Virus record (IMG/VR): IMGVR_UViG_3300025466_000214
Coordinates: 1 to 20,740 of that record
DNA from: a virus
Reading direction: 5' to 3' (one strand)
Length of the DNA stretch: 20,740 bases
In this document: one piece after another, positions 3,895 through 17,545 of the stretch
How positions within the stretch are numbered: the first letter of the stretch is position 1
Layout: the number at the start of each line of letters is the position of its first letter
Notes under the pieces: model-generated
What the model saw: only the letters and a program-made list of their open reading frames with translations
The model's database searches: none
What the model was told of the DNA's origin: nothing
Made by a program: the position numbers and the translations under genes

Positions 3895-3899
3895 AGGGT

Positions 3900-3907
3900 G
3901 ATAAATA
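3900..3907 (+). promoter_or_regulatory. T4 late-type promoter motif GATAAATA
   Basis: GATAAATA begins 5 bases after the nuclease stop. The predicted start is near 3913, in the loop region of the hairpin described next. It serves the fibre-type gene at 3928. Confidence 0.6.
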
Positions 3908-3927
3908 ATATATCGGACGGATATATT
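3907..3927 (+). promoter_or_regulatory. RBS-masking hairpin before the fibre gene
   Basis: AATATATC (3907-3914) and GATATATT (3920-3927) form a perfect 8-bp stem with a 5-base loop, GGACG, that holds most of the ribosome-binding site GGACGG. The ATG follows at once. The left arm lies at or before the predicted late start, so only read-through transcripts could fold it. Confidence 0.55.
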
Positions 3928-5703
3928 ATGCCAATTGTACAAATTTCAAAAATGCAACATAGAGTCGGAGCACTTTCCGACTTACCTCAACTTGATATAG
4001 GTGAGTTAGGGTTTGCAACAGACGAAAATCGTTTATTTATAGGGAATGACCCTATCTTACACCCAGTTGGAACTGGTGAAGTAACCAACACTGAGGTATT
4101 AACCAGTGATCCAAACTGTTCAATAAGTTTCAGTCAATTAAGTGGAACATTATCAATTGCAATAGGTAATTTAAAAATTGTTAATAATACCGGTGACACT
4201 ACAAACAATAACGGTAAAGTTCTTCAAACTGATGCTCACGGAAATTTAAGCTGGGCTACAGTATCAGGTTTGGGTAGTGGTGCTCCTGGTGGCGGCAACA
4301 CACAAATTCAATATAACTCCAGCACACAATTTGCTGGACAAAGTAATCTAACATACAACGACACTAGTAATACATTAACAACTGATAATATTCATTTGTT
4401 TGGTAATTTACTAGCTGCCGGTAATATCTCCTCAGCACGTTTTTCAGGTGACGGTGGAACATTAAGCAACATTACTGGTGGTAATGTTACTGGATTTGTT
4501 GCTAATGCAAATATTGCAAACACAATACGCAATGCCTCACAACCTAACATCACTAGTATCGGAACATTATCTAACTTGACAGTTACAGGTAATGTCACAA
4601 GTAATGGAAACTTGAAGGTAGCAAACGCATTAAGTGCCAATAACGTTAGTTCATATGGTACCGGTGGCAATGGATTTGTTGTTGGTAACGGAGCACAGAA
4701 TCAATCAGCACTTGCATTCGTGCCAACAACTGGTGTTGGTGCTAACATGGCTATTCGTGATTTTTCAACTGTTCCAAGTTTCATGTACTTTGATGTGTCA
4801 GTTGGTGCTAATGCTAATGGACAGTTTGTATTCCGTACAGGTAACGGATTCCACACTTATGCAACACTTGCAAATTCAGGAACAACATTAGCTAACGGAT
4901 TAGTAGTTACAGGTAACATTACCGGTAATGTAATTATTGGCAATGGTTCTTCATTGTCAGCAATTACAGGAGCAAATGTAACTGGACAAGTTAGTAATAG
5001 TTTAATTGCTGGTACAGTTTACACAAATGCACAGCCAAATATTACTAGTGTGGGCACACTTGCTAACTTGACAGTTACAGGTAACGTACAAGCAACAAAT
5101 TTCTTAGGCGACGGTGGTTATTTAAGTAATATTCAAGCAGGTAACATTATAGGTAATGTTCAACGTGCTAACATAGCTAACTTAGCAGCTACTGCTACTA
5201 CAGTAGTTGCACCTAATCAACCTAATATTACAAGCGTAGGTCCTCTTGCTAACTTAAGCGTGTTAGGTAATGTCACAAGTAATGGATTCTATATTGGTAA
5301 CGGTAGTTTATTGACAGGTACATTGCCAAGTAGATCCAATGTCAGTATAGCAACTGCTAATATTGCGAATGCGGTTTCAGCAAACGTTACAATCTCTGCG
5401 TATAAAGGTTATGCTTTATATAGTTTACAAACAACGGCTGCTGCTTGGGTAACAATTTATACTTCTGTTGCTGCTAGAACGGCAGATGCTTCTAGACCAA
5501 TTACAAGTGATCCTCTTCCAGGTTCAGGAGTTATTGCTGAAGTTGTTACTGCCAACACTGACCCGATTGTGTTTACACCAGCATTGATGGGTTTCAGTAA
5601 TGAATCAGTTCCTGATGGAAACATTCAATTGAGAGTTAATAATTTAAGTGGTGCTCATCAAGCTATCACTGTTACATTAACTGTGTTGCCATTAGAGAAA
5701 TAA
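3928..5703 (+). CDS. Tail-fibre/tropism-type structural protein with repeats
   Basis: A 591-aa protein. I start it at ATG 3928 (MPIVQISKMQHRVG) because an in-frame GTG at 3898 lies in the promoter and GGACGG is well placed for 3928. Residues 1-50, with GELGFATDENRLFIGND, resemble the small N-terminal domain of many phage fibre and tropism proteins. A Gly/Asn/Thr-rich beta-repeat region follows. The unit QPNITS[I/V]G-x-L-x-NL recurs at residues 205, 369 and 431, mixed with GDGG-x-LSNI units. The last 100 residues form a compact beta domain (GYALYSLQTTAAAWVTIYTS to the end) shared, as I recall, by many marine phage structural proteins. Probable role: receptor binding or an attached virion fibre. 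The protease gene starts one base after its stop. Confidence 0.78.
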   Translation: MPIVQISKMQHRVGALSDLPQLDIGELGFATDENRLFIGNDPILHPVGTGEVTNTEVLTSDPNCSISFSQLSGTLSIAIGNLKIVNNTGDTTNNNGKVLQTDAHGNLSWATVSGLGSGAPGGGNTQIQYNSSTQFAGQSNLTYNDTSNTLTTDNIHLFGNLLAAGNISSARFSGDGGTLSNITGGNVTGFVANANIANTIRNASQPNITSIGTLSNLTVTGNVTSNGNLKVANALSANNVSSYGTGGNGFVVGNGAQNQSALAFVPTTGVGANMAIRDFSTVPSFMYFDVSVGANANGQFVFRTGNGFHTYATLANSGTTLANGLVVTGNITGNVIIGNGSSLSAITGANVTGQVSNSLIAGTVYTNAQPNITSVGTLANLTVTGNVQATNFLGDGGYLSNIQAGNIIGNVQRANIANLAATATTVVAPNQPNITSVGPLANLSVLGNVTSNGFYIGNGSLLTGTLPSRSNVSIATANIANAVSANVTISAYKGYALYSLQTTAAAWVTIYTSVAARTADASRPITSDPLPGSGVIAEVVTANTDPIVFTPALMGFSNESVPDGNIQLRVNNLSGAHQAITVTLTVLPLEK

Positions 5704-5704
5704 A

Positions 5705-7024
5705 ATGATTTTTAAACCACTTATCAACTCTCACAAATTCGTAGCTGATTTTTCTAGTATCAGTGATGCCGTTGTGAAGGATAACTATCTAACACCTCCT
5801 ATGATTTCAAAAGCATACAATATGCCTGAAAGTACTGGGTTTAAAGTCACTATTGGAATCATCAGCTTGGGCGGAGGATTTTTACAAAGCGATTTAGACA
5901 GGTCAATGAGTGACTTAGGTTTAGAATCTCCTTCAATTAATTTCATTTCAATTGACAGTGCAACCAATGACTTTGATAATAGTGTTTATAGTATCGAAAA
6001 CACTTTAGATATTTTTTGCATTGCTAGTATGGTTCCCGATGCAACTATTAATATCTATATTGCATCCCCTGATATGACTAACAATTCACAAGTTGTATCA
6101 GATTTTAATGCTGCTGTGCAACAAGCCATTAACGATGGATGTGATTTGATTAATATCTCTTGGGGTACTAATGAAGTTGGAGATCATGGTCAACCAGGTG
6201 GTGATGTATTTGATACTGTGTTGGCAAACGCAGAAGCATTGGGCATAACAGTTTTTGTTGCTAGCGGAGATTTTGGATCATACAACCCTACAGTAGACAA
6301 TTCAGTTAATCCTTTACTTGGTATTGCTCCTGTATATCCTGCAAGTAGCGCAAGAGTAATTGCTGTTGGTGGGACTTACCTAACCCTTAATACTGATGGT
6401 ACAAGAAATACTGAGTATGCAGCACAAAACTCAGGTGGTGGTATTAGTAGAATCATACCAGTACCAGCATGGCAAGATAAATTGCCGTATATTGGTGCAG
6501 GATTGTTGAGTAATACAAGCACTAAGTTAGTCAAGTATGCACTTACTAATAGTCCAAGAGTTGGTAGAGGTGTTCCTGATTTAGCTGCACCATATTACAA
6601 TTATGTTTTTTATTTCAACAATGCATTAGTTGCAGCAAACGGCACAAGTGCTAGTTGCCCTGTAATCTTAGGTATGTTTGCTAGATTCATTTCATTGAAT
6701 CATGGAAGAAGACCTGCATATGGTGCAAGTACATTTATGACAGAGTTTTATCCCTTTGTTAAAACTGCATTTTTCAATGCTACGTTTGATAAAACATTTA
6801 CTAATACAGGTGTGATTGGTAATAGCGACATTACAACAGCTAACATTGCAAACATAAATGCAGGATATATTTCAACTACTAACAGTTGGAATCCAGTAAC
6901 TGGATTGGGTGCACCTAACGGTAGAAATCTATATAGATTAACCGGAGTCACTGGACAAACCTATCCATACAACAGTTCAAGTAGACCAGGCAACGGTATT
7001 CTCTACCCACGTAAACTCGTCTAA
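5705..7024 (+). CDS. Sedolisin-family (S53) serine-carboxyl peptidase
   Basis: A 439-aa protein with the whole catalytic domain of sedolisin/kumamolisin peptidases and no prodomain. TPPMISKAYNMP opens the domain (30-41), then the VTIGIISLGGGF strand (48-59). Glu98 and Asp102 (ENTLD) fit the catalytic Glu/Asp. ISWGTNE lies at 151-157. Asp189 in VASGDFGS fits the oxyanion Asp. PASSARVIAVGGT, NSGGGISR and GRGVPDLAA are family landmarks, and GTSASCP holds nucleophile Ser315. DI at 375-376 and WNPVTGLGAPNG at 395-406 fit the calcium site, but Asn replaces the usual Asp in W-D-P. There is no signal peptide. It is co-translated with the fibre gene (1-base gap), so a virion-bound or fibre-processing protease is a fair inference. 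Family assignment is strong; the role is unknown. Confidence 0.9.
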   Translation: MIFKPLINSHKFVADFSSISDAVVKDNYLTPPMISKAYNMPESTGFKVTIGIISLGGGFLQSDLDRSMSDLGLESPSINFISIDSATNDFDNSVYSIENTLDIFCIASMVPDATINIYIASPDMTNNSQVVSDFNAAVQQAINDGCDLINISWGTNEVGDHGQPGGDVFDTVLANAEALGITVFVASGDFGSYNPTVDNSVNPLLGIAPVYPASSARVIAVGGTYLTLNTDGTRNTEYAAQNSGGGISRIIPVPAWQDKLPYIGAGLLSNTSTKLVKYALTNSPRVGRGVPDLAAPYYNYVFYFNNALVAANGTSASCPVILGMFARFISLNHGRRPAYGASTFMTEFYPFVKTAFFNATFDKTFTNTGVIGNSDITTANIANINAGYISTTNSWNPVTGLGAPNGRNLYRLTGVTGQTYPYNSSSRPGNGILYPRKLV

Positions 7025-7121: not shown

Positions 7122-8348
7122 ATGGGACGTCCTTTAGCAAAAAGATATTTCGGTAATCTTAACACAAACGATACCGGAGATAATGCATCAACATATTCAC
7201 GTAGTTCACACGAAGGTATCGGTGGTCAAGGTGTTGCAAGTTACGGTACAATCGTAGCAGGTTCAGGTTGGACAACAATTCCAACTGTTTCATTCAGTGG
7301 CCCAACATTGCCAGGTGGACAATCAGTTGCTGGTACAGTACATTACAAAGCATTATCATTCGCTACAACAGCAAATGGTTCAGGTTATAACGTAGGTGAT
7401 GTAGTAGAAGTACACACAGGTACTGCAACTACGAAGGCACGTGCAACAGTTGCGGCTATTACTGTTGTTACAGCTACAAAACATTTAAACACAGGTACAG
7501 GTTACGCTGATGGTGATACAATCACATTTAGTTCAGGTTGGTCAACACCTTGTGTATTGCGTGTAAATCGTCCAGGTGGCGGTACAGGTAGCGCTGATAA
7601 CTATACTATTGTTAACCCAGGTGTTCGTAGTTCAGCAGCTCCAACTAACCCAGTATCTCCAGACAGTCACACTGGTTCTGGTTCTGGTGCAACTGTTGAC
7701 TTTGTATTCGGTGCATATTCATTCAGCGCACCAACAGTAGCAGGTGATTACACTACATTCCCAAGCACAAATAGTGCAGGTGTTTTAGATTCAATTAGTC
7801 CAGCAACTGGTACAGGTGCTAAAGCTGATATCACTATGGGTCTATTGAGCATTACCGTAACAGATCCAGGTTCTGGATACTTAAATGCTGCCGATGCAGC
7901 AGTAAGTTTCAGTGGTTCAACTGGTGCAGCAGCTACCGCAGTATTGACTACTGACGATGGTACACCATATGATGCAGAAGCATTCCCAGCTATCATTGCA
8001 TACGCTAAGACTACTTCAGGTGGCACAAACCAAATCGCTGACATCAATCGTCAACGTGGTTCACATCGTTATTACGTAACTACAGCAGATGGTTCAGCAG
8101 TTTGCCAATTGAAGACAACTGGTGCAGCAAGTTCTGCAGGTGAAATGACTATCAAGGCAACTGATAGTGCTGGTAAAACATATTATGTTCAAAAATTAAC
8201 AGCACACAGAGCAACACTAGTTCCTTATGGATCAAGCGGTTGGAACTTCCCATTGGTAAATTCTCAACCTCAATCAGTTCACTGGACTTTCAGTACTGGC
8301 GATACAACATACAACAGTGCTACATCTGTTGTTATCGAAAACGCTTAA
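7122..8348 (+). CDS. Late virion protein with Gly-rich beta repeats
   Basis: A 408-aa protein beginning MGRPLAKRYFGNLN, a start I recall from virion proteins of marine T4-like phages. TAGGAG is a strong ribosome-binding site. The sequence is Gly/Thr/Ser/Ala-rich and made of short beta repeats of the form G-S-G-[W/Y] followed by a strand: GSGWTTIPTVSFSG, GSGYNVGDVVEV, GTGYADGDTITF, GSGYLNAADAAVSFSG. The last about 110 residues form a separate domain (HRYYVTTADGSAVCQLKTTG, KTYYVQKL, TLVPYGSSGWNF). It has its own late-type promoter, a long structured leader, a narrow codon choice and a strong terminator, all suggesting high late expression. Decoration or tail surface protein is a reasonable guess; no enzyme motif is visible. 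Confidence 0.78.
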   Translation: MGRPLAKRYFGNLNTNDTGDNASTYSRSSHEGIGGQGVASYGTIVAGSGWTTIPTVSFSGPTLPGGQSVAGTVHYKALSFATTANGSGYNVGDVVEVHTGTATTKARATVAAITVVTATKHLNTGTGYADGDTITFSSGWSTPCVLRVNRPGGGTGSADNYTIVNPGVRSSAAPTNPVSPDSHTGSGSGATVDFVFGAYSFSAPTVAGDYTTFPSTNSAGVLDSISPATGTGAKADITMGLLSITVTDPGSGYLNAADAAVSFSGSTGAAATAVLTTDDGTPYDAEAFPAIIAYAKTTSGGTNQIADINRQRGSHRYYVTTADGSAVCQLKTTGAASSAGEMTIKATDSAGKTYYVQKLTAHRATLVPYGSSGWNFPLVNSQPQSVHWTFSTGDTTYNSATSVVIENA

Positions 8349-8815: not shown

Positions 8816-10192
8816 TTAAATGACGATAGAATAATCACCTTCCGAATACCAACCTTCGTAACTCTTCATCCATACACCATCAGCCCAACGATATTGAACA
8901 CCTGAGTATAAGTTAGTAACGAATTGAGTATCGGGGAATAATTGGCTATCAAATGCAACTTCCCATCTACCTGTATTTGACACATATTGAATAATGTCAT
9001 TTGGATTTGCAGTTACACTGCCCCATGCAACACTAGTTCCATCTAATCCTTCAACGATTAGATAACGTTGACCATCTGCTGCTTCGGGTAATCCATGTTC
9101 AATACCACTAGACTCTTGTGGGCCAATAACATGAGGATTGATAACTCTATCCACAGGTGCTAGTGTGTCTTGTGGTAATGTATCATTGTCAAAACTTAAC
9201 AACAATATTCTATCATCAGATGGATGTAGAGCAAAGGTTGCAACAATCGGGTTGCTTAGATATGGATTGTCTAACCAAATTTGACTACTTGGTTTTATTG
9301 TGCCATACACGTTTAGTAAACTTGTCCAGTATAATTGTGTGTTAGGATTTTCTGGCAAGTCAATTGCTTCATTGTTTGGATATGAAGGTTGACTGCCCGG
9401 TACTAGTTGTAAGCTGTTGCCAATCAATAATACTTTGTATCCATATGGTGTGACTTTTTCTCGTGTACCTAACAACAACGAATCGTCTTTCATGTCAGTC
9501 AATGCATTGCCTTGGAAGATACTATTGATAATCTTATGAATAACACCAAGTTTCTTAACTTTAGCACTTGAACTTATCCAGACAGGCATGTAGAATTTCC
9601 AAGACATTACATCAATAGGATTACCTGAGCCAACAGGAATACTGCGACTACTGAAGGTTAGTCCATCTTGATATACTACTGATAATGAAGTCCAATCAAT
9701 AAAGTTATCAGTGCTTTGTAATTCCATTGCAGGATTAAACAATACACCAAGTTGCTCAATCAATTCTAGTTTTTGATTGTAGTTAGTTGTCCAAAAGTCT
9801 ACTGTGATACGCAATGTATACGGTACTGGCATTAGCCTTTCAACTGTAAATGCTTGTCCTTGGGTGTTTTCAAACTGTTGAGTATCAGCATTGTATGTAC
9901 GACGGCGAACATTCATTTTATCAATAAAGAATGGATCCTGTGTACGTTTTTGATCGTATTCTAATCCACTGATATAATAAGTAATCATGGGTGCACTTGG
10001 TACGCTGCTTGCACTATTATTAGCAATAATAGTACTTGCTTGACGACTTGAATCTCCATATTGAATTGGTACACGAACAAGTATAGGATTACCTGCAGGG
10101 TCGTTGCCCTTTGTTACTTGCCAGTCGGAAAAAATGCGACCAAATTGAATTAAAAAACGACGGATTTGATTATCGTAGAAGAATGCTGCCAT
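8816..10192 (-). CDS. 15: gp15-like tail sheath stabiliser / tail completion protein
   Basis: A 458-aa protein whose N-terminus, FFYDNQIRRFLIQFGRIFSD, lines up with the start of T4 gp15 (aromatic FYNSSFRRY-type opening). The strand LVRVPIQYGDSSRQ matches the T4 IRVPITYASKE segment. The middle holds RLMPVPYTLRITVDFWT, an acidic Glu-Leu-Gln-rich helix and PIDVMSWKFYMPVWISS, also found in cyanophage gp15. In T4 this protein caps the tail tube and sheath and joins tail to head. At 458 aa it exceeds T4 gp15 (about 270 aa). The extra C-terminus, from about 370 (DGQRYLIVEGLDGTSVAWG to the end), is a separate repeat-like domain. ACTAAATA and AAAAGG precede the ATG. Confidence 0.85.
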   Translation of the reverse strand: MAAFFYDNQIRRFLIQFGRIFSDWQVTKGNDPAGNPILVRVPIQYGDSSRQASTIIANNSASSVPSAPMITYYISGLEYDQKRTQDPFFIDKMNVRRRTYNADTQQFENTQGQAFTVERLMPVPYTLRITVDFWTTNYNQKLELIEQLGVLFNPAMELQSTDNFIDWTSLSVVYQDGLTFSSRSIPVGSGNPIDVMSWKFYMPVWISSSAKVKKLGVIHKIINSIFQGNALTDMKDDSLLLGTREKVTPYGYKVLLIGNSLQLVPGSQPSYPNNEAIDLPENPNTQLYWTSLLNVYGTIKPSSQIWLDNPYLSNPIVATFALHPSDDRILLLSFDNDTLPQDTLAPVDRVINPHVIGPQESSGIEHGLPEAADGQRYLIVEGLDGTSVAWGSVTANPNDIIQYVSNTGRWEVAFDSQLFPDTQFVTNLYSGVQYRWADGVWMKSYEGWYSEGDYSIVI

Positions 10193-15300: not shown

Positions 15301-16053
15301 ATGAACCTACAAGAATTAAAAGATCAATTATTTCAAAACTTACGATATCGTATGGGTGAAGGTATAGTTGATATTGAAGCAGATCCAGAGCATTTTGAAG
15401 CAGCATATCAATATGCCATTAAAATTTATCGTCAAAGAGCGCAAAATGCTACTATGGAATCATACACATTAATGAGCCTAGCGGAGCATGTTGATACATA
15501 TACCCTACCACAAGAATTTATTAATGTCCGTCAAGTTTTCCGCAGAACGATTGGGTTAGAAACTGGCCCTAGTTCTAGTAGCTTTGACCCATTCTCCAGT
15601 GCTATCTTAAACACATACCTATTGAATTATAACTACTCAGGTGGATTAGCTACATACGATTTCTATGCAGGATATATTGAATTAGCCGCACGTATGTTTG
15701 GTGGTTATATGATTTATACCTTTAACCCTGTTACTAAACAGATTCGTTTAGTTAGAGATACAAAGGGATCGGGGGAACAGATTCTTGTTTGGGCTGACAT
15801 ACAACGCCCTGAAGCTGAACTATTACAAGATCCGGGTGCAGGTGTTTGGTTGGGTGACTTTACATTATCAACTATCAAAATGATTATCGGTGAAGCACGT
15901 GAAAAATTTGGAACTATTGCAGGCCCTGGTGGGGGATCCACATTGAATGGTACCGCATTAAAAGCTGAAGGTCTAGCACAACAAAATCAACTGTTAGAAG
16001 ATTTGAAACGCTATGTTGACTATTCACAACCACTAACATGGGTCATTGGATAA
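15301..16053 (+). CDS. 13: gp13-like neck protein
   Basis: A 250-aa protein with late control. I choose ATG 15301 (MNLQELKDQLFQNLRYRMGEG) because GGAGAG is 4-9 bases upstream and the earlier ATG at 15283 lies beside the promoter. It has the plan of T4-type neck proteins: an N-terminal helical segment HFEAAYQYAIKIYRQRAQNA, a short strand TYTLPQEFINVRQVFRR and an aromatic middle (LLNYNYSGGLATYDFYAGY). A beta core VTKQIRLVRD follows, with a helical C-terminus LSTIKMIIGEAREKFG and LLEDLKRYVDY. In T4, gp13 and gp14 form the neck that joins portal and tail; T4 gp13 is about 310 aa, so this one is shorter. The assignment rests on motif order and late context. The next gene starts one base after its stop. 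Confidence 0.72.
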   Translation: MNLQELKDQLFQNLRYRMGEGIVDIEADPEHFEAAYQYAIKIYRQRAQNATMESYTLMSLAEHVDTYTLPQEFINVRQVFRRTIGLETGPSSSSFDPFSSAILNTYLLNYNYSGGLATYDFYAGYIELAARMFGGYMIYTFNPVTKQIRLVRDTKGSGEQILVWADIQRPEAELLQDPGAGVWLGDFTLSTIKMIIGEAREKFGTIAGPGGGSTLNGTALKAEGLAQQNQLLEDLKRYVDYSQPLTWVIG

Positions 16054-16054
16054 T

Positions 16055-17545
16055 ATGAGAGCAAGTGAGTTCATTGTTGAATATAAACAATATCCTTTGG
16101 AAGAGTTTGAGGGTATCAATATGAAACTTAAAGTAGACAACCATGAGTTGATTCTACAGGCTCTTGACGACTGGGGTAACAAAGTACTAGGTCATGTTAG
16201 AATGAACATAGGTGACGGTAGTGAACTAGACCCGCAAGATTTACAAGTTGACGACCGTTACAGAGGTCAGGGCATTGCAAAGGTAATGTATGATTACCTT
16301 AAATCTAAAGGATATGAAATACATCGTAGTCCCGATCAGACAGATGATGGTAAACACTTTTGGGACAAAAACCGCGGTGAAGAAGGTAATGTTTGGGAAG
16401 ATGTCTTCGGTTCAAAAGCGCCAAAGCAATTTGAACCTCTGAAAGAGTTTGAGGAAAATAATCTAAAACTAGAACCCGAACCGTATGAAGGTTGGACTGG
16501 CGAAGGTATTATTGTTCGTGCGTATTTGAGTGACAAAGAAGTAGGGCATGTAATCTTTGAACCTACAGAAGATGATGAAACACAATGGTATGCAGTTGAT
16601 GTTGAAGTAGATGACAACTATCAGCGTAAAGGTATTGCTACATCTATGTATAACTTGGCTAAGAATATTGCTAAAAAGCGTGGTATAATTATTGTTCGTA
16701 GTCATGCACAAAGTCAAGCCGGTCAAGGTCTTTGGCAAGATAAAAAAGTTTGGGAAGATGTACCTAAACCTGGACCAAGTTCAGGAGCGCCAAAGCAATT
16801 TGGACCTGACGCAAAGATAGAAACTCGCCAAATGACTGTAAAGCAATTAATCTCGTCAGTACCAGGCTTGCCCTACTACAACAATGTAGTTGATGATTGG
16901 GACGCTAAAGATTACAGTTGGGGTGTTACTAAGAAGGTAATAGAATACGCTACTTACCTAAAAGAACATCCTGAGAGTTTATCAAAGTTGCCACCTATAA
17001 TAGTGTTGGACGGTAAGTTTGAAGATGGGGCACATAGAGTATCTGCTATATGGTTGCTACAACAAAGAATGGATCCTAAGAATCCTTTATGGGCAAATGC
17101 TAAATTGAATGTCCAATTTGTAACGCAAGGTATTACCGAAGCATTTACTAACCCATATAACTTCAAATGGGAAGAAGGTGAGTACGGTGATTGGGATGCT
17201 CTTGCGCCTAGATTGCGATTAGAAATTGGATTCACTAGAGACCATGATTATCCTGACAGGTACCAAGTCGAGTTCTGGCGTAACAACAGTATAGGTGTTA
17301 CTGGTGATGGTGATGCTCAACGTATATTCGCTACTGTATTGGAAGCTATAAAACAGTTTGTTGACAAAGTTCACCCCGACCAACTACACTTTACAGCAAG
17401 TAAGGAAGTAGAAAAAGGTCAGAACCCAGAAAGTCGTGCTAAGTTGTATGACAGAATGGTGCAACGCTATGCTTCCTCAATTGGATACTCATCACATCGT
17501 ATGGATACTGGTATGGATATTCAGTACGAACTACATCGTAAATAA
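16055..17545 (+). CDS. Four-part fusion: GNAT-GNAT-ParB-like-unknown
   Basis: A 496-aa protein. I use ATG 16055 (MRASEFIVEY), one base after the neck gene, not a GTG three codons earlier. Residues 20-118 hold an acetyltransferase-type fold with the acetyl-CoA motif RYRGQGIA (69-75). Residues 137-236 hold a second with YQRKGIA (189-195). Both end in near-identical tails, WEDV then APKQF[E/G]P (114-128 and 233-251), so the unit was duplicated. Residues 255-345 look like a ParB/sulfiredoxin-type domain: PPIIVLDGKFEDGAHRVSA (313-331). Residues 364-496 form a C-terminal domain (FKWEEGEYGDW, GDAQRIFATVLEAIKQF, SRAKLYDRMVQRYA) that I recall from other marine phage proteins but cannot name. Substrates are unknown; modification of host or virion proteins is a possibility only. 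Confidence 0.8.
   Translation: MRASEFIVEYKQYPLEEFEGINMKLKVDNHELILQALDDWGNKVLGHVRMNIGDGSELDPQDLQVDDRYRGQGIAKVMYDYLKSKGYEIHRSPDQTDDGKHFWDKNRGEEGNVWEDVFGSKAPKQFEPLKEFEENNLKLEPEPYEGWTGEGIIVRAYLSDKEVGHVIFEPTEDDETQWYAVDVEVDDNYQRKGIATSMYNLAKNIAKKRGIIIVRSHAQSQAGQGLWQDKKVWEDVPKPGPSSGAPKQFGPDAKIETRQMTVKQLISSVPGLPYYNNVVDDWDAKDYSWGVTKKVIEYATYLKEHPESLSKLPPIIVLDGKFEDGAHRVSAIWLLQQRMDPKNPLWANAKLNVQFVTQGITEAFTNPYNFKWEEGEYGDWDALAPRLRLEIGFTRDHDYPDRYQVEFWRNNSIGVTGDGDAQRIFATVLEAIKQFVDKVHPDQLHFTASKEVEKGQNPESRAKLYDRMVQRYASSIGYSSHRMDTGMDIQYELHRK

Follow-up and report, generated by a model that had tools for sequence, protein, structure and literature searches.

A prodomain-less, tail-fibre-linked phage sedolisin with a C-terminal tag shared with cyanophage subtilases

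Results

The sedolisin gene and its product. The stretch of DNA analysed (hereafter the window, 20,740 nt) contains a complete, uninterrupted reading frame with an ATG start that encodes a protein of 439 aa and begins, as the initial annotation had it, 1 base after a fibre-type gene (5703/5705). The features considered below are:

3898–5703, plus strand: tail-fibre-type gene, 601 aa, with a repetitive shaft and an N-terminus that resembles Mtd_N at a score below the Pfam cut-off
5230–5700, plus strand: fibre tip domain (phrog_15343), partner of tagged proteases
5705–7024, plus strand: gene for a prodomain-less S53 sedolisin, 439 aa (PDB match and predicted fold)
5996–5998, plus strand: catalytic Glu98, kumamolisin E78 (kumamolisin alignment, as for the next five)
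6008–6010, plus strand: catalytic Asp102, kumamolisin D82
6269–6271, plus strand: oxyanion Asp189, kumamolisin D164
6647–6649, plus strand: nucleophile Ser315 in G-T-S-A, kumamolisin S278
6776–6778, plus strand: Asn358 in place of kumamolisin Asp316, a calcium ligand
6890–6892, plus strand: Asn396 in place of kumamolisin Asp338, the other Asp calcium ligand
6983–7012, plus strand: C-terminal tag RPGNGILYPR, residues 427–436 (pattern scan)
7122–8348, plus strand: gene for 408 aa, no family match, third member of a fast-diverging block
8816–10192, minus strand: gp15-type tail sheath stabiliser

Among solved structures the best match of the 439-aa protein was kumamolisin (1t1g, E 3.8e-23, query residues 29–410), while Pfam registered a remote S8 similarity alone (1.6e-13). 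The AlphaFold model (pLDDT 78.6, pTM 0.84) has a kumamolisin-like fold, and the ten-residue blocks around E98, D102, D189 and S315 are predicted with pLDDT of about 89–97. In Foldseek this model matched kumamolisin-As (6.4e-26, target-normalised TM 0.81) and Pseudomonas sedolisin (7.8e-21), the best S8 structure scoring 2.1e-12, so that sedolisins are nearer to it than subtilisins. By homology, catalytic tetrad and fold the product of 5705–7024 belongs to the S53 peptidase unit, and the tetrad named from the sequence at the outset is the one that aligns with kumamolisin. With kumamolisin and the MEROPS S53 family it shares the fold, the Glu-Asp-Ser residues with the oxyanion Asp, and the GTSA, GGGxS and TGLG landmarks; it differs from them in the missing prodomain, in Asn at the calcium Asp positions, in its phage fibre context and in the C-terminal tag.

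Only about 29 residues precede the catalytic domain, and Pro-kuma_activ (PF09286) had no match in this protein or anywhere else in the 20,740-nt record, which agrees with the earlier reading of a catalytic domain starting near residue 30 without a prodomain. No signal peptide was apparent in residues 1–30 on inspection by eye. The definition of S53 rests on the peptidase unit, and the prodomain, though usual, lies outside that unit. Two features of canonical secreted sedolisins are missing here: the activation prodomain and a calcium site with two Asp ligands. The replacement of Asp by Asn in the W-D-P calcium site had been pointed out before (N396); the second Asp ligand turned out to be Asn as well (N358). 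Among the aligned phage sedolisins this double Asn occurs only in the window and in two others (L128, L002); one further protein (L048) has Q and N at these positions, and nearly all the rest keep both Asp. Loss of both ligands could reduce stability or activity.

A family of phage sedolisins. In IMG/VR a single-sequence query found nothing, while a query alignment together with kumamolisin brought out a family of about 40 distinct phage sedolisins. A tblastn search of 50,697 cultured-phage records (INPHARED) with three different phage sedolisins as queries gave no sedolisin; the window sedolisin matched 44 plasmid records (about 30% for the best of them), so the search method itself works. 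A tree that included cellular S53 proteins, the outgroup at about 30% identity, separated 32 phage sedolisins from the cellular ones with support 96/94 and placed two further IMG/VR sequences (L019, L021) on the cellular side. The first branches within the 32 are L126 and L017, which retain Pro-kuma_activ (4.7e-12 and 9.8e-13), and the other 30, all without prodomain, make one group (100/100). Since these basal branches still have the prodomain, it was, most simply, lost after the sedolisin had entered phages. The window sedolisin is therefore not a lone capture. A recent host insertion was also considered and rejected, because the gene falls into a phage clade and related phages, a close relative among them, keep it at the same position.

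Almost every informative phage relative retains the tetrad (the S53 region of L166 fell outside this alignment); the clear exception is L048, with E98A and S315H. This protein (L048:744–2039) has both a tip partner and the tag, and is probably catalytically dead. Phage sedolisins without an upstream tip either end in another repeat, IKT..NTWSYV...TTWKQTF, or run on into proteins of 649–1413 aa with the sedolisin as N-terminal domain, some of which add Ig-like or Gly-rich regions. The repeat, in the form IKTxxNTWSYVxNVxVKT...TWKQTF, is common to the C-termini of L130–L133, L135, L141, L149, L151, L171 and L174, and is possibly a second attachment tag. Three unusual architectures were registered: an S53 sedolisin and a tip-type S8 protease in one chain of 1362 aa (L166:3787–7875), a sedolisin fused to Ig-like, Gly-rich and C-terminal Hint-like domains, the last by a weak Pfam match (L012:9971–14167), and a sedolisin in two overlapping frames of 169 and 261 aa (L173:6001–7267), which reflects a frameshift or an assembly error.

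The fibre tip domain and its protease partners. The last ~157 aa of the 601-aa fibre protein, at its C-terminal end, form a domain that immediately precedes the sedolisin in the fibres of many other sedolisin phages. It matches 48 cultured records. Almost all of these belong to Synechococcus phages, and in some the annotation is tail fibre or baseplate/tail pin. Comparison of the predicted fold of the tip domain with solved structures gave no convincing relative. In a set of 88 tip loci, 80 of them the best-scoring of at least 577 in IMG/VR and found with a query alignment seeded mostly with protease-paired tips, the next gene encodes a protease in 84, and the gap to it is usually 1 base. By single-linkage clustering 74 of these partners fall into an S8 cluster and 10 are S53. 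All tested proteins of the S8 cluster were recognised as S8 by Pfam except L084, which is grouped with the S-CAM1 S8 protein at 50% or more. The remaining four loci comprise two truncated partners (L060, L073), one non-protease (L046) and one unclassified protein (L075).

Most cultured cyanophages examined have an S8 gene in the slot behind the tip (by Pfam S-CREM1, S-H9-1, S-CAM1, S-H38, S-WAM2, ACG-2014h, S-CAM4 and ACG-2014e). In ACG-2014i and Sf-CH1b it is occupied by a protein of 765–776 aa with no protease match, and the tip gene of S-CRES1 has no comparable partner; there (L178:1915–3378) it adjoins capsid genes. Some S8 partners are themselves elaborate: L097:5175–7979, L098:1942–4800 and L181:3383–6307 carry a plastocyanin-like C-terminal domain, and in L050:5386–8073 the S8 match comes in two stretches, apparently with a long insert between them. 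The window shows the arrangement of the cyanophages, with the C-terminal tip upstream, a gap of about 1 base and the tag, but its protease is S53, not S8. The S8 proteases of the T4-like cyanophages S-CREM1, S-H9-1, S-CAM1, S-WAM2 and S-H38, which share this slot and a matching or variant tag, belong to the other family and have an N-terminal extension resembling, by eye, an I9-type propeptide. Peptidase genes at syntenic positions have been described in two cyanophages (PMC3037559).

A tag common to S53 and S8 partners. After the catalytic domain, tip partners of both families carry the motif R-P-x-x-G-x-x-[YFW]-P-R. In six frames of 1.56 Mb of phage loci this strict pattern gave 72 matches (a redundant count), all in partners of the tip domain. 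In 15 whole records it matched eight times, at most once per record, seven times in the tip partner, while the reversed pattern had no match in the same records. The eighth match is a 77-aa protein of S-H9-1, encoded after the gene that lies behind another tail-fibre-like gene. A looser form of the tag was found in 18 of 18 tip-partnered phage sedolisins versus none of 22 others (Fisher 9e-12, uncorrected for kinship: the tip label changes five times on the sedolisin tree and relatives are not independent). It is also present in 33 of 49 distinct non-S53 tip partners, most of the others having variants with different spacing, and in none of 976 other ORFs. The association of tag and tip suggested by these comparisons is a statistical one. 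Equivalents of the small S-H9-1 protein in ACG-2014i and Sf-CH1b are tagged too. The small tagged cyanophage proteins (77–95 aa; L047:4305–4538, L046:7813–8100 and L180:5683–5916) each lie behind a large protein that has no protease match and follows a fibre gene. Are they another cargo of the same plug?

A fast-diverging block in a conserved neighbourhood. In a close relative (L128/L129) the neighbouring proteins are 92–100% identical to those of the window, while identity drops to 77% for the fibre, 67% for the sedolisin and 63% for the product of gene 7122. The block has dN/dS of 0.15–0.39, with 0.18 for the sedolisin and 0.39 for 7122–8348, its fastest-diverging member; these ratios show that its genes are under constraint. 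Positive selection as the source of the divergence was not supported, as dN/dS stays below 1 and dS is raised too. The raised dS suggests instead that the block was exchanged with a more distant lineage, as happens with host-range genes. The sedolisin had been placed initially in a phage structural cluster. This is right for the upstream fibre gene, but the downstream gene 7122–8348, taken for a virion gene, has no family match, though it diverges within the same block. The tail sheath stabiliser is nearest to those of jumbo phages (Atu_ph07, Phosso, PA5oct), not of cyanophages, which places the backbone of this phage near jumbo myoviruses; on this ground a transfer of the tip cassette from one group of phages to another is probable. 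Elsewhere in the window, positions 16046–17545 encode a protein with two GNAT acetyltransferase stretches and a phage-type C-terminal part.

Discussion

Based on these data one can assume, with some confidence, that the sedolisin belongs to the virion, docks on the fibre tip through its tag and cuts a host surface protein. Translated directly after the fibre gene, the enzyme, presumably catalytically competent, would become a virion component, with the C-terminal tag docking it onto the C-terminal tip domain of the fibre or onto a partner common to both. During attachment it would act from the fibre end on a protein of the host surface (outer-membrane protein, S-layer, sheath or matrix) and cut it in the way that polysaccharide is cut by tailspike depolymerases. 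The protease itself would be an interchangeable module, S8 in cyanophages and S53 in this phage, and the prodomain was presumably lost in phages since such an enzyme needs no secretion as a silent precursor. A virion-borne protease had already been proposed from the sequence alone; the strict pairing with the tip, the tag shared with S8 proteases of the same slot, the fusions of relatives with long Ig-like or Gly-rich regions and a record in which no prodomain gene is found now lend that proposal good indirect support, the location in the virion being what we infer from them.

The same proposal left open whether the enzyme trims fibres or opens host surface proteins. A position straight after the fibre gene suits assembly factors, as T4-like gp38 and its like are encoded there, and the tag could serve as a recognition handle for the fibre; a maturation protease or assembly factor that cleaves the upstream fibre or helps it to fold would not have to remain part of the virion. 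However, the same slot also holds S8 proteases, the dead sedolisin L048 and non-proteases, which makes trimming less likely than cutting of the host surface, and elsewhere the sedolisin is the front part of a phage protein of 649–1413 aa, not a free enzyme. We regard a role in fibre maturation or assembly as unlikely. The persistence of tip and tag in L048 despite E98A and S315H, together with the rapid, adhesin-like divergence of the block and the calcium site lost in the subclade of the window, would fit a sedolisin fold used as a fibre-tip adhesin, with catalysis secondary. Against such a binding scaffold, which is quite improbable, stand a tetrad that is intact in almost all the roughly 40 distinct phage relatives and the dN/dS of the window sedolisin against its close relative. 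Even less can be said for a captured cellular sedolisin with an intracellular or lysis role and no link to the virion. Cellular S53 genes do form the outgroup, but the phage clade is old and well supported, the prodomain is absent, no signal peptide is evident, the gene has a fixed place after the fibre, and the tag occurs only alongside the tip domain.

A virion protease at the fibre tip would have partial parallels. T4-like gp38, a fibre-tip adhesin whose gene lies right after the fibre gene, is alike in gene place and location but has no protease domain. Most of the tail enzymes that have been studied in phages act on sugars or the cell wall. Predicted sedolisin folds also occur in S53 proteins of giant viruses (Barrevirus, Homavirus), which are not tailed phages and have longer chains. 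The baseplate hub of the Anabaena myophage A-1(L) carries a tail-borne peptidase domain active on host cells (PMC10966104); this domain targets the cell wall and is not a fibre-tip serine protease. In the literature covered (main texts, mostly of freely accessible papers) we found no description of the link between tip and tag or of the pairing of sedolisins or subtilases with this fibre tip.

A broader generalisation can be offered only tentatively. The tip domain and the ten-residue tag may constitute a standard plug in at least two lineages of tailed phages, cyanophages and jumbo-type myoviruses, through which S8, S53 and perhaps other surface enzymes are swapped at the end of the fibre, sedolisins having shed their prodomain there. 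If such a recurring surface-protease cassette is real, it would suggest that host surface proteins are a barrier that aquatic phages cut, and the ten-residue motif would offer a handle for finding such proteases and their partners. A natural sedolisin without a prodomain also has a bearing on what purpose the prodomain serves.
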